From assembly GCA_009781675.1 (NCBI GenBank), contig WQVG01000005.1:1-58449 (forward strand): DNA of 58,449 bases, in the 5' to 3' direction. The stretch comes from Candidatus Bathycorpusculum acetigenes (GTDB lineage Archaea; Thermoproteota; Bathyarchaeia; Bathyarchaeales; Bathycorpusculaceae). How positions within the stretch are numbered: position 1 is the stretch's first letter; the number at the start of each line of letters is the position of its first letter. Shown here in pieces: positions 256 to 5,199 of the stretch. The notes beneath the pieces were generated by a model, which saw nothing but the letters and a program-made list of their open reading frames with translations, was not told where the DNA came from and did no database searches. Both the position numbers and the translations under genes were made by a program.

Positions 256-3200
256 TTGCCGAGTTTTAATATGAACAACAATTTTAAACCTATTTTTAAT
301 TTTAAATCAGGCAGTTCTTACAAGGGTTTGTTTTTTGTTTCTTTGTTTGTACTGCTGCTTTCTTCTTGTCTATATGCCTACATACCATCCACAAATGCGC
401 AGTCCGTAGTATATGTTGGGACTGAGAGTGCACTTAGGGATGCAGTTAATGATGCTGTGGTACCCACGATTATTACGCTTACAGCCGATATTCAACTTAC
501 AGGCACAACACTAAATCTTGTCGCGGGCAAAGATATCACCCTAACAAGTAATAGTCCGAGCGCATTTTTTAAGTTGATTGGCGTAGCCAGTCAAGATACT
601 ATTACAGTTTCAAATGGTGCGCGGCTGGAACTTGCGGGTATCACTGTAACTCACACAAGCGGCACTTCTGGTCTAGGGGTATATGTTCAGATTGGCGGCA
701 TACTTGTCATGTCAAACGGTGCAGTATCAGGTAACGCAGCCGACTTTGGCGCTATACATAATCGCGGCACTTTTACCCTGACAGGCGGCACAATAAACAA
801 CAACACAAATATTGGCATTTCAAGTAATAGTGGCGGCGGTGTATACAACGATTATGGCAACTTCACCATGTCTGGGGGTACAATATCCAACAACACGGCC
901 TTTACGGGCGGTGGCGTATGCAACTTTTTTGGCCAATTTACTATGACGGAGGGTACAATCGCTAATAACACTGTAAGTGGTTTTGGCGGCGGCGTAGACA
1001 ACAACCACGGTAACGTTAGCATGTCTGGCGGCAAGATTTCTAATAACACAGCTGCTGCGGGCGGCGGCGTAGACAACCACAATTCGGGCAACTTTAGTTT
1101 ATCTGGTGGCGAAATATCAAACAACAGTGCCGTTAGTGGTGGTGGTTTAATGATTTGGAGTGGAAGTACCTTTAATATGTCTAATGGTGCAGTTCTAAAT
1201 AATACTGCTCAGCAAGGCGGTGGTATACAGAATGGGGGTACTTTTGAGATGTCTGGCGGCAGGATTTCTAATAATACATCTGGTGGTACTGGTGGCGGCG
1301 TAGAAAACTTTGGTACTTTTATGCTGTCTGATGGCGAGATATCTAGCAATACAGCCACAGATGGCGGCGGCGTTGATAACAACACTTTGGACTTTATTAT
1401 GACTGGCGGCACGATATCTAACAACAAAGCCTCCAATAATGGCGGCGGTGTTGATAACCTTGGTGGCACAGTTAGCCTATTTGGAGGTACAATAGCCAAT
1501 AACACCGCTGTGTCTGGCGGCGGTGTATACAACGTCTATGGCCAATTTACTATGACCGCGGGCACAATAGCCAATAACACCGCTGGGTATGGCGGCGGCA
1601 TATACAGTTACTCTGGCAGTCTCACTCTGTCGGGGGGTACAATATCTAACAACACCGCTGTGGGTAGCGGTGGCGGCATATACAACGGCAGCCCCTTTAC
1701 TATGTCAAATGGTACAATTTCTAACAACGCCGCAACAAACGGCGGAGGCATATACAACTATGGAAATAGTTTCGTTGTGTCTGGCGGCAAAATTTTCAAC
1801 AACACAGCAACAAACGGCGGCGGCATAACCAATACGGGTACCTTTACTCTCTCTAACGGCGAAATATACAACAACATAGCCAGTAATGGTGGCGGCGGTA
1901 TACAAAACAGCGGCTTTTTTGATATGTACAATGGCACAATTTTTGGTAACACAGTTGAATTTGGTGCTGGCGGTGGTGTGCGAAACATTGGTTCTTTTAG
2001 TATGTATAATGGCATAATTTCAAACAACACAGCGGACATGGGGAGCGGCGGTGGTATAGACAATGAAGGCGGTAGCCTTACTATTGTTGACGGCATAATT
2101 TCAAACAACACAGCAGCAATCGGCGGCGGCGTAGGTAACACAAACTATGGTACCGCTACTATGTTAAACGGCGAAATCTCCAACAACATAGCAACCATTG
2201 ATGGCGGTGGTGTGTTTTCCGGTGGCGGTAGCTTTAGTATGTCTAATGGTAAGATATTTAACAATACTGCAAATAGTGGCGGAGGCGTATACAATAGCGG
2301 CGACTTTGTTATATCTGATGGCCAGATAGCGAACAACACCGCAGTTAGTGGCGGAGGTATAACCACCGATAACGGCAATGTTATCATGTTTGGCGGCGTA
2401 ATTTCAAATAATAGTGCGTTATTTGGCGGTGGTGTCTACAACTATTTCCAAGGTAACCTTACCATATTTGACGGCATGATCACCGAGAATAGCGCTATCA
2501 CTAACGGTGGTGGTATATTCAACTCCTTCTATGGAAACGTTATAATGTTTAACGGAATTATCGCTAACAACACCGCTGGCTCTAACGGTGGTGGTATATA
2601 TCTCTCAAGCGGCCAATTTGGCGGTAATCTTGTCGAGTTATTTAGCGGTACAGTCTCGGGTAACACTGCTACAGTTGATGGCGGCGGGGTTTGGGTTGCC
2701 TATGAAGACCTAGACAAACTCTTTGTCCATAACGGTATGGTCTTCTCCAATAATAGTGCCTCAGTTGCATACAATAGAAACCCCATAGATGATGCTCTAT
2801 ACTACGAACAAATAGGATCCAACGTAATCTGGACTGACCCCTTCACACAGGGATACAACAACTATGACATAAGCTACACAAACGGCACACCCTACGTTGT
2901 ACTCTACAATGTGACTGTAAACAATAGCTTTGCATCAATAACTGGTGCGGGTAGCTATGCTGAAGGTGAAAACGTCACCATTAATGCTGGTACCCGGCCC
3001 GGATACAACTTTGTTGGCTGGACCGTTAATGAAGGCAACATCACTCTGCCCAACACGCCCCTTGCATCGTTTATTATGCCTCCCACAAATGTTGTGGTAA
3101 CTGCTAATTGGCAGGAAGCTTCCCTTGAGGGTTCTTTTAGTGTCACCAAACTAACTAGCCCAACTGGTGCCTCAACAGCCTTTAGCTTTGTTACCTCCGC

Positions 3201-5199
3201 ATCGTCGGGAACCTTTAGTTTAACTGATGGCACGACTTGGAGCAGTGGTCCTTTAGCGCCTGGGAATTATACGTTAACTGAACTTGGTGCGGCGGGTTGG
3301 GATTTAGCCAACATTATTGTTCTTGATCCTACCAGCAATTCTTATGTTGATTTAGCATCACGCACAGTCTTTATTGCCCTAGACCCCGGAGAAACCATAA
3401 GCATACTCTACCAAAACACCCAACAACAACCCCAAACAGGTTCTATTAATGTGGTTAAAACTACCTGCCCAACAGATGCCCCCAATAGCTTCAACTTTGT
3501 CACCTCCATCCCACCCGGAACCTTTAGCTTAACTGATGGCACCACCTGGAACAGCGGCCCACTAACACCCGGCAACTATACCCTAACCGAAATCGCACAA
3601 GCAGGCTGGGACCTAACCAACATCATCATAAACGACCCCACCAACAACTCACAAGTAGATTTAGCATCACGCACAGTCTTTATTGCCCTAGACCCCGGAG
3701 AGACTATAACCATACTCTACCAAAACACAAAACAAACCCCCGATATGGGCTCCTTTAGCGTCACAAAAGTCACCTGCCCAGTAGATTCATCTGAGAGCTT
3801 TAGATTTGTAACCTCCACACCCAGCGGAAGCTTTAGCCTAACCGATGGTTCTAGCTGGAGCAGTGGTATGTTGCCCCCGGGAACCTACACCGTAACAGAA
3901 CTAGTGCCCCCAGGCTGGGAAATAACAAACATACTACTTGACGACCCCTCAGAAACCTCAAGAGTAGATTTATCCACCGGCACCACAACCATAAATCTCC
4001 AAGCAGGCACCCACGTATCCATAGTCTATCAAGATGCACAAGCCCCGCCACAGGGAGGTTCGATCTCAGTTGTTAAAATGACCTGCCCCACTGACTCCGC
4101 AGCACAGTTCGCTTTTGTGAGCTCAGCTTCTGAGGGCGCCTTTAGTTTAGGCAACGGAGAGGTTTGGAATAGCGGCGAGTTAGCTCCGGGGAGATATCTT
4201 GTCACAGAGATCATGCAACCCGGCTGGGTAATTACCGATATTGTGGTTGTAGACCCCAGCAGCACCTCAACCTCTGATCTCACAACCGGCACTGCATTTA
4301 TCAATCTCCAAGCAGGCACCCACATAACCATAATCTACCAAAACACACAACAAACCCACCCCGACTGCTGCAGCGACTGCCACCAAAAACCCTGCCAATG
4401 CAACCCCTGCAACGACTGCCACCAAAAGCCCTGTCAGTGTAAGCCTTGTAATGAGTGTCATCAAAAGCCCTGCCAATGCAACCCCTGCAACGACTGTCAT
4501 CAAAAGCCCTGCCAATGCAACCCCTGCAACGACTGTCATCAAAAGCCCTGTCAGTGTAAGCCTTGTAGTGAGTGTCATCAAAAACCCTGCCAATGCAAAC
4601 CCCTCTGTCCTCCAACTCAACTCCCATGCAAACCCAAACACAACTGCAACAACCCCCGACCGGACTGCAACAAACCTCAAGTTCCCTGCAATCCCCCCAT
4701 TGTCTGTCCTCCTCAACCTGTCGGTAATTCTCAAGACATCTGGAGTGATGCTGAGACAGTTGAGCTTTGTGATGTAGTTGAGGGTTTGGAGGAAGGTTTG
4801 GATAGTATGCAAATAGAAACTGATAACACCCAAACTGCTACTGTTGACTCAACTGGAACCATTGCTGAAACCCAAACCACAAGCTCCTCGACTTCCAGTT
4901 CAACTTCAACAGGCTCCTCTGTATCCAGTTCAGGTTCGTCTAGTCCGGTGTCTTTAGATGCTGGTACATCTGGTGCTGTTTCTTCTTCTGATGTGTCTTT
5001 GGCGCGTCCAGTTCCATCGGTTTCGTCTGCTTTGGATTCTCAGCCTGCCTTAACACAGAGCCCTGCGGAGGGTTCGGTTATGTTTGGTTTAGGTGCCTTA
5101 GGTGCAGCGTTGGTGGTGTTGCTTAGCGCCCTTGTATCAGTATTGGCTGTAACTGCAAAACGCATACAACAGAAAAAAATCGCAACGCTTCACCAATAG
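256..5199 (+). CDS. Giant modular cell-surface protein: beta-helix, four prealbumin-like repeats, CXXCH tandem repeats, C-terminal anchor
   Basis: A 1,647-residue exported protein. TTG 256 is the longest start; ATG 271 is more likely because a TATA box lies at 230. A hydrophobic signal segment (about residues 22-45) is followed, at about 140-835, by some 30 short repeats of the type GG.ISNNTA..GGG(V/I).N. These resemble right-handed beta-helix or polymorphic-outer-membrane-protein repeats. Residues about 882-952 match the InlB/Listeria-Bacteroides repeat (GYNFVGWT). Four copies of a prealbumin-like (Cna-B/SpaA-type) domain start at 959, 1062, 1165 and 1268, exactly 103 residues apart. Residues 1372-1449 are six 13-residue Cys repeats such as CNDCHQKPCQCNP. 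A Ser/Thr-rich stalk (about 1525-1582) precedes a C-terminal membrane helix (about 1610-1632) and a short basic tail. It is probably S-layer-associated, anchored with the repeats outside. Ligand and function are unknown. Confidence 0.85.
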   Translation: MPSFNMNNNFKPIFNFKSGSSYKGLFFVSLFVLLLSSCLYAYIPSTNAQSVVYVGTESALRDAVNDAVVPTIITLTADIQLTGTTLNLVAGKDITLTSNSPSAFFKLIGVASQDTITVSNGARLELAGITVTHTSGTSGLGVYVQIGGILVMSNGAVSGNAADFGAIHNRGTFTLTGGTINNNTNIGISSNSGGGVYNDYGNFTMSGGTISNNTAFTGGGVCNFFGQFTMTEGTIANNTVSGFGGGVDNNHGNVSMSGGKISNNTAAAGGGVDNHNSGNFSLSGGEISNNSAVSGGGLMIWSGSTFNMSNGAVLNNTAQQGGGIQNGGTFEMSGGRISNNTSGGTGGGVENFGTFMLSDGEISSNTATDGGGVDNNTLDFIMTGGTISNNKASNNGGGVDNLGGTVSLFGGTIANNTAVSGGGVYNVYGQFTMTAGTIANNTAGYGGGIYSYSGSLTLSGGTISNNTAVGSGGGIYNGSPFTMSNGTISNNAATNGGGIYNYGNSFVVSGGKIFNNTATNGGGITNTGTFTLSNGEIYNNIASNGGGGIQNSGFFDMYNGTIFGNTVEFGAGGGVRNIGSFSMYNGIISNNTADMGSGGGIDNEGGSLTIVDGIISNNTAAIGGGVGNTNYGTATMLNGEISNNIATIDGGGVFSGGGSFSMSNGKIFNNTANSGGGVYNSGDFVISDGQIANNTAVSGGGITTDNGNVIMFGGVISNNSALFGGGVYNYFQGNLTIFDGMITENSAITNGGGIFNSFYGNVIMFNGIIANNTAGSNGGGIYLSSGQFGGNLVELFSGTVSGNTATVDGGGVWVAYEDLDKLFVHNGMVFSNNSASVAYNRNPIDDALYYEQIGSNVIWTDPFTQGYNNYDISYTNGTPYVVLYNVTVNNSFASITGAGSYAEGENVTINAGTRPGYNFVGWTVNEGNITLPNTPLASFIMPPTNVVVTANWQEASLEGSFSVTKLTSPTGASTAFSFVTSASSGTFSLTDGTTWSSGPLAPGNYTLTELGAAGWDLANIIVLDPTSNSYVDLASRTVFIALDPGETISILYQNTQQQPQTGSINVVKTTCPTDAPNSFNFVTSIPPGTFSLTDGTTWNSGPLTPGNYTLTEIAQAGWDLTNIIINDPTNNSQVDLASRTVFIALDPGETITILYQNTKQTPDMGSFSVTKVTCPVDSSESFRFVTSTPSGSFSLTDGSSWSSGMLPPGTYTVTELVPPGWEITNILLDDPSETSRVDLSTGTTTINLQAGTHVSIVYQDAQAPPQGGSISVVKMTCPTDSAAQFAFVSSASEGAFSLGNGEVWNSGELAPGRYLVTEIMQPGWVITDIVVVDPSSTSTSDLTTGTAFINLQAGTHITIIYQNTQQTHPDCCSDCHQKPCQCNPCNDCHQKPCQCKPCNECHQKPCQCNPCNDCHQKPCQCNPCNDCHQKPCQCKPCSECHQKPCQCKPLCPPTQLPCKPKHNCNNPRPDCNKPQVPCNPPIVCPPQPVGNSQDIWSDAETVELCDVVEGLEEGLDSMQIETDNTQTATVDSTGTIAETQTTSSSTSSSTSTGSSVSSSGSSSPVSLDAGTSGAVSSSDVSLARPVPSVSSALDSQPALTQSPAEGSVMFGLGALGAALVVLLSALVSVLAVTAKRIQQKKIATLHQ
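3130..4365 (+). repeat. Four 309-bp in-frame domain repeats
   Basis: The four prealbumin-like domains of the surface protein begin at 3130, 3439, 3748 and 4057, an exact 309-bp period. Copies 1 and 2 share a block of more than 40 identical bases near their 3' ends (about 3354-3400 and 3660-3706), pointing to recent duplication or gene conversion. Copies 3 and 4 are more diverged. Each unit runs from a G-S-(F/I)-(S/N)-V strand through SLTDG and a PG.YT(L/V)TE segment to a terminal Y-Q-(N/D) strand. Confidence 0.8.
4369..4602 (+). repeat. Six 39-bp Cys-rich tandem repeats (CXXCH in each)
   Basis: Units start at 4369, 4408, 4447, 4486, 4525 and 4564. Each encodes C-(N/S)-(D/E)-C-H-Q-K-P-C-Q-C-(N/K)-P, with four Cys and one His per unit and 24 Cys in the array. 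A looser Cys-Pro tail follows (about 4603-4720). Every unit contains CXXCH, the c-type haem attachment motif, but the 13-residue spacing and the extra C-Q-C make metal binding or disulphide knotting equally plausible. Confidence 0.85.

Follow-up and report, generated by a model that had tools for sequence, protein, structure and literature searches.

A cysteine- and proline-rich neck with repeated CXXCH motifs in a predicted surface protein of Candidatus Bathycorpusculum acetigenes

Does a tandem run of CXXCH motifs in an archaeal surface protein mark a rod of c-type haems, or can the same motif arise within a cysteine-rich segment of another kind? The question is raised by a stretch of 58,449 nucleotides from Candidatus Bathycorpusculum acetigenes (hereafter, the window), where a gene for a large surface protein carries six such motifs in close succession. 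A preliminary description of this DNA had proposed a haem rod on an adhesin-like scaffold or, failing that, a metal-binding or disulphide-laddered spacer. We examined the protein and its repeats, looked for both in the source genome (G000; 2.14 Mb in 140 contigs, 95% complete) and in related genomes, and weighed what the cysteines may do.

The surface protein and its repeat array

The features of the gene, all on the forward strand, are as follows:

256..5199, + strand: surface protein gene (1647 amino acids), from the list of open reading frames, with a TTG start at 256
271..405 (end approximate), + strand: putative N-terminal hydrophobic export signal, SYKGLFFVSLFVLLLSSCLYAYIPSTNAQS, read from the translation
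406..2800, + strand: repeats of ~25 amino acids (GGG[VI]xN / SGGTISNNTA), putative right-handed beta-helix adhesin region, from 75-bp tandem periods and motif inspection
2905..3117, + strand: divergent InlB B-repeat domain PF18998 (amino acids 884-954; Pfam E 2.1e-15)
~3130-3426, 3427-3738, 3739-4041 and 4042-4362, + strand: four putative SpaA-like (prealbumin-like) stalk domains, the last of which was searched against the source genome
4369-4602, + strand: six tandem 39-bp units of 13 codons each, consensus C-[NS]-[DE]-C-H-Q-K-P-C-Q-C-[NK]-P
4603..4722, + strand: second part of the neck, Cys/Pro-rich and non-periodic, LCPPTQLPCKPKHNCNNPRPDCNKPQVPCNPPIVCPPQP, from the translation
4723..5094, + strand: Ser/Thr-rich spacer (31% Ser + Thr over the whole tail)
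5095..5151, + strand: C-terminal transmembrane stretch, ALGAALVVLLSALVSVLAV, then Lys/Arg (mean Kyte-Doolittle value 2.67 over 19 residues)

The ATG at 271 (MNNNFKPIFNF...) is a more likely start than the TTG at 256; a paralogue in the source genome (L014) begins with a matching MNNNFKPIFKL.... The protein is predicted to be secreted and membrane-anchored, and the earlier view of it as archaeal, surface-exposed, adhesin-like and membrane-anchored is supported by its domains, its hydropathy and the records of its homologues, the named ones being MAGs of Candidatus Bathycorpusculum and Nitrososphaerota. The published description of the genus places it in termite guts and in some further habitats (PMC10684969). 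A sequence search of the beta-helix region against the PDB gave nothing usable, so that this fold is one that we infer. For the SpaA-like domains, PF24514 (SpaA_4) was matched by seven of nine domain copies from this and related proteins (best E 8.4e-5) and lay below its curated cut-off in the whole protein; the best PDB sequence matches were pilins (E 0.04), and a fold search was uninformative. The downstream genes are one for an Lrp/AsnC regulator, on the opposite strand, one for a GMP synthase and sugar-nucleotide genes, and none of the near neighbours examined pointed to haem or metals. At the start of the window, on the minus strand of positions 1-200, a frame (CQNPKC...YHCHHCNTYF) that runs off the contig start resembles the zinc-binding N-terminus of a transposase.

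Along the array, the units read, in frame with the 256-5199 reading frame, CSDCHQKPCQCNP, CNDCHQKPCQCKP, CNECHQKPCQCNP, CNDCHQKPCQCNP, CNDCHQKPCQCKP and CSECHQKPCQCKP. The preliminary description had counted 24 Cys and 6 His here, and the translation gives the same numbers. Its report of six tandem CXXCH repeats with a 39-bp period was likewise borne out by the translation, by Tandem Repeats Finder (period 39 × 6.1 copies, score 297, with a higher-order period of 117 × 2.0 at 92%, score 411) and by a pattern count across the 2.14 Mb of the source genome, where the strict DNA pattern for CxxCHxxxCxC had 12 matches and the reversed control 1; all but one of the 12 belonged to the window array or its relatives. 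Near-identity of the units in DNA had been overstated: The mean pairwise identity is 83% (range 69 to 95%), while the protein sequence is nearly identical. Because 11 of the 12 variable DNA columns of the array fall at third codon positions, its protein sequence seems to be under selection. The Cys, the His, the Gln-Lys-Pro and the final Pro are invariant, and the His codons differ only synonymously (CAC/CAT). The third-position bias has p = 4.7e-5 if columns are independent, but the 12 columns show only five patterns because the units were copied, and since units within one genome are related by duplication, their constancy speaks less strongly for selection than might appear.

Since they carry unit-specific variants and the array is resolved inside a 58-kb contig, the units are real; an assembly artefact is thus ruled out for the units themselves, with the exact copy number not guaranteed. 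Elsewhere, the long arrays are cut off at the ends of contigs (C56 in the source genome, C110 and C16 in its relative G034), which is the behavior of repeats that assemblers cannot resolve. Together with its non-periodic second part, the neck spans 119 amino acids, with 26% Cys, 21% Pro, CxC and CxxC motifs, and no aromatic residue. A unit of the source genome contains no further His or Met and no aromatic residue (another part of the protein might supply a ligand). A Pfam search of the neck found no family at E <= 1, metallothioneins included; a PDB sequence search with the array gave nothing usable; and structure prediction gave the array no fold (pLDDT about 26-41), which left a fold search without meaning.

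Copies of the unit in the source genome and in relatives

The unit recurs at four other places in the source genome, namely on contigs C56 and C18 and as fragments on C24 and C118, and thus appears as a spacer that can move among the members of a single gene family; degraded copies are scattered over C24, C118 and C34. On C56, three full units and a C-type lectin domain are found, with the contig end falling inside the array. The long paralogue on C18 has two units, one of each type, adjacent to each other (CCNCNKDPCQCPP, then CSDCHQKPCVCKP; one is of a CCxCN type), after which comes a lectin-like domain that a TAG interrupts. In both paralogues the units lie between SpaA-like domains and the C-type lectin domain, a placement that would be as expected of a structural spacer.

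Two observations on these paralogues stand apart from the array itself. The C56 protein (L015, 12414-12974) is an archaeal surface protein in which a C-type lectin domain (PF00059, E 2e-18) is fused to a Cys array. In the C18 protein (L014, 7329-7331), a single in-frame TAG interrupts the lectin-like domain, the remainder of which is intact beyond it when compared with L015. Read-through with pyrrolysine was rejected because no PylS scored above cut-off in the source genome, and an ordinary nonsense change is likelier for the same reason.

Outside the source genome, the last SpaA-like domain was found in 7 of 91 family genomes, all of the same genus, and the 13-residue array in 3 of the 91. 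A profile search with the unit detected no array beyond the source genome, G034 and G038 among 257 class genomes, and an array in the source genome only among 398 phylum genomes; an array scan of 84,980 species genomes, a set that possibly left out the source genome, found no relative. In G034 and G038 the arrays follow the equivalent last SpaA-like domain (CCECNKKPCECKP in G034; CCDCSQKPCQCKP and CCDCNQKPCQCKP in G038), and their unit is CC[ED]C[NS][KQ]KPC[EQ]CKP; one first unit, SCECNKQPCEFKP, has diverged. None of the seven complete units has His at position 5, where all carry Asn or Ser, and all seven have a fifth Cys at position 2; Cys 4 and 9 and Pro 8 and 13 are invariant, and Cys 1 and 11 are each kept in six. 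When all 20 units were pooled, including one cut by a contig end, His stood at position 5 in 11 and Cys at position 2 in 9, never both and never neither.

At the equivalent place, G020 and G032 have necks with 20-28% Cys and 28-36% Pro in other spacings (e.g., PPPCSPTPPPC), and a third protein among further relatives has a neck with CCCKCDCCC. From the comparison of G034, G038, G020, G032 and the C18 paralogue, it follows that the genus keeps Cys and Pro at the neck site and that the CXXCH repeat belongs to one lineage. Judged by the genomes compared, the Cys/Pro-rich neck is lineage-restricted.

Haem, disulphides or metal

The multihaem reading holds that each CXXCH binds a haem and that electrons pass along the stalk. 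It can draw on six exact CXXCH motifs in an exported protein (with a hydrophobic N-terminus and a C-terminal transmembrane stretch), on the purely synonymous variation of the His codons, and on a CcdA/DsbD-like gene in the source genome, a family that is not specific to cytochrome maturation and serves other thiol pathways. Against it, PF01578 (CcmC/CcmF/CcsA-type) and CcmE are both absent from this 95% complete genome in searches that covered these two families and detected the former in 9 of 14 controls and the latter in 5, with Methanosarcina acetivorans among the positive ones. In Methanosarcina, cytochrome c formation requires CcmABC and CcmE (PMC9084895). There is a small chance that the ccm genes are merely missing from the assembly. 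Furthermore, the CXXCH His is missing from the homologous arrays of G034 and G038, and the unit would offer 13 residues per haem with neither a second His or Met nor hydrophobic packing residues. Numerous false positives for CXXCH are listed in a survey of archaeal cytochromes c; most of these proteins have one or two motifs, and RecJ homologues with three are among them (PMC4429474).

With PF01578 and CcmE absent and the His lacking in close relatives, the haem rod of the preliminary description is not supported; the reading appears already largely refuted, and we consider it very improbable indeed. That description had named two things as telling against haem, namely, the absence of a maturation system and a zinc- or disulphide-only structure, and the first is what the source genome displays as far as PF01578 and CcmE are concerned. 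Its fallback, a metal-binding or disulphide-laddered spacer, is left standing because the Cys are retained in close homologues. As a separate observation, one relative in the genus that lacks the array (G028, contig C1, 123296-123664; L011) has a PF01578 match over cut-off.

The array is a real, apparently selected, Cys/Pro-rich neck and, on present evidence, not a haem rod. The reading that we prefer is that it forms the juxtamembrane neck of a Bathycorpusculum-type adhesin, in which the Cys act chemically and the haem motif is a look-alike. The adhesin would run from a beta-helix head through a SpaA-like stalk, the Cys/Pro neck and a Ser/Thr-rich spacer to a transmembrane anchor, and the Cys chemistry would give the adhesin a base that is stiff and resists proteases, with disulphides within and between chains as the likeliest means (a probability of about 50%). 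An older CCxCN unit may have gained its His by one base change (AAC to CAC) and lost the Cys at position 2, after which tandem copying would have produced the present array, with CXXCH resembling a haem site without being one. We infer this direction, from CCxCN to CxxCH, from the spread of both types.

Several points bear on the disulphides. In favor of the neck, the arrays of G034 and G038 keep their Cys without the His after the last SpaA-like domain, and disulphides would suit both a Pro-rich setting and a spacing that varies freely from one relative to the next. On the other side, neither VKOR nor DsbB was found in the source genome, so that no known enzyme driving extracellular disulphide formation came to light in searches that covered these two oxidases, and a CCxCN-type unit cannot close within itself because its five Cys are an odd number. 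Contig C53 of the source genome (L033, 435-2169 and 3240-3629) carries the CcdA/DsbD-like gene beside one for a polyferredoxin (ferredoxin-type) membrane protein, and in the vicinity a further beta-helix surface protein ends, which has a membrane anchor and neither SpaA-like domains nor a Cys neck. The pairing of a CcdA/DsbD-like protein with a ferredoxin-type one suggests a path that carries reducing power outward, which would speak against disulphides.

The same circumstances lend weight to the main rival, in which a soft metal ion (Zn, Cu(I) or Fe) is bound in each unit by four Cys and a His, or by five Cys in the relatives, and the neck serves as a metallothionein-like, metal-stiffened spacer outside an anaerobe. 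With VKOR and DsbB not found and an outward reductant likely, the thiols would stay reduced. Moreover, His 5 and Cys 2 are mutually exclusive in 20 of 20 units (11 and 9), so that units differ little in how many soft ligands they have; phage virion proteins, whose synthesis takes place in a reducing cytoplasm, carry a single C[SD]DCHKDPCEC motif with the same C-x2-C-x4-C-x-C spacing. Yet the ligand swap was possibly a single event, the necks of other relatives are spaced quite differently, some Cys standing singly within Pro-rich repeats, which is not what a fixed metal site would look like, the array matches no metallothionein or other Pfam family, and no metal-handling gene was seen among the near neighbours examined. 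We hold metal-thiolate beads to be unlikely overall, if a genuine contender. A little less probable still is the fuller picture of a metal-loaded rod outside an anaerobic archaeon, with five Cys/His ligands per unit, His and Cys exchanged between species, and the ligand number kept. If that were true, the base of an adhesin would be stiffened or switched by metal.

Finally, the array might be a largely disordered spacer grown by replication slippage, whose Cys have no specific role beyond composition. The free variation of neck spacing and length among relatives, the absence of the array from most of the genus and the degraded copies on C24, C118 and C34 are in keeping with this, whereas the Cys richness retained at an equivalent place across different repeat types and the third-position bias of the variable columns (11 of 12) are not. 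Obligate anaerobes tend to keep Cys out of exported proteins (PMC12453122), which would make 24 functionless Cys surprising. We regard such a spacer as improbable.

This is a case where repeated CXXCH seems not to mark a multihaem cytochrome, which matters for automatic cytochrome counts in uncultured archaea. It also places a Cys-dense exported domain in an archaeon in which searches for two known disulphide oxidases, VKOR and DsbB, found neither, and the redox state of archaeal cell-surface thiols thereby becomes a testable question.

Likeness to known systems

Multihaem cytochromes c share with the window protein several CXXCH motifs in an exported protein, but differ in that here neither PF01578 nor CcmE of the known attachment machinery was found in the source genome, the His is not conserved and the unit holds no distal ligand.

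The phage virion proteins with C[SD]DCHKDPCEC (PHROG 14154 and 13484) have the C-x2-C-H-x3-C-x-C spacing, but in one motif copy, in an unrelated protein and inside the cell; the resemblance is, as we read the motifs, convergent, and by analogy the intracellular phage motif is more likely a metal site. Viral proteins (L100-L109) have a single motif of this type, two of them matching PHROG virion structural families, and L108 also contains CDTCGMADCGC, of equal spacing and without His; the viral contigs hold single motifs only. Matches in phage BPP-1, on the strand opposite bbp36, and in a Priestia plasmid, with an KDKCKDKHEKDYG repeat, were set aside as compositional.

Metallothioneins combine CxC, CC and CxxC motifs with intervening Lys and no aromatic residues. 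The window neck is similarly Cys-dense and aromatic-free, with CxC, CC and CxxC motifs and Lys between them, but it is extracellular, Pro-rich, periodic and without a Pfam match, and any metal binding is putative.

SpaA/Cna-B-type adhesins and pilins resemble the window protein in the predicted export signal, the putative stalk of repeated prealbumin-like domains (PF24514-like), the Ser/Thr-rich spacer and the C-terminal hydrophobic anchor. Unlike them, the window protein is archaeal, has a putative beta-helix-type head and a Cys/Pro neck between stalk and spacer, and its domains do not reach the Pfam cut-off when the whole protein is scored.

An antibody hinge such as that of IgG3 is a Cys/Pro-rich tandem repeat between beta-sandwich domains that serves as a disulphide-tied spacer. 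The window neck has no homology to it, is far denser in Cys and adjoins the membrane of an anaerobic archaeon, but it is likewise a tandem Cys/Pro-rich repeat, in which the disulphides are putative.
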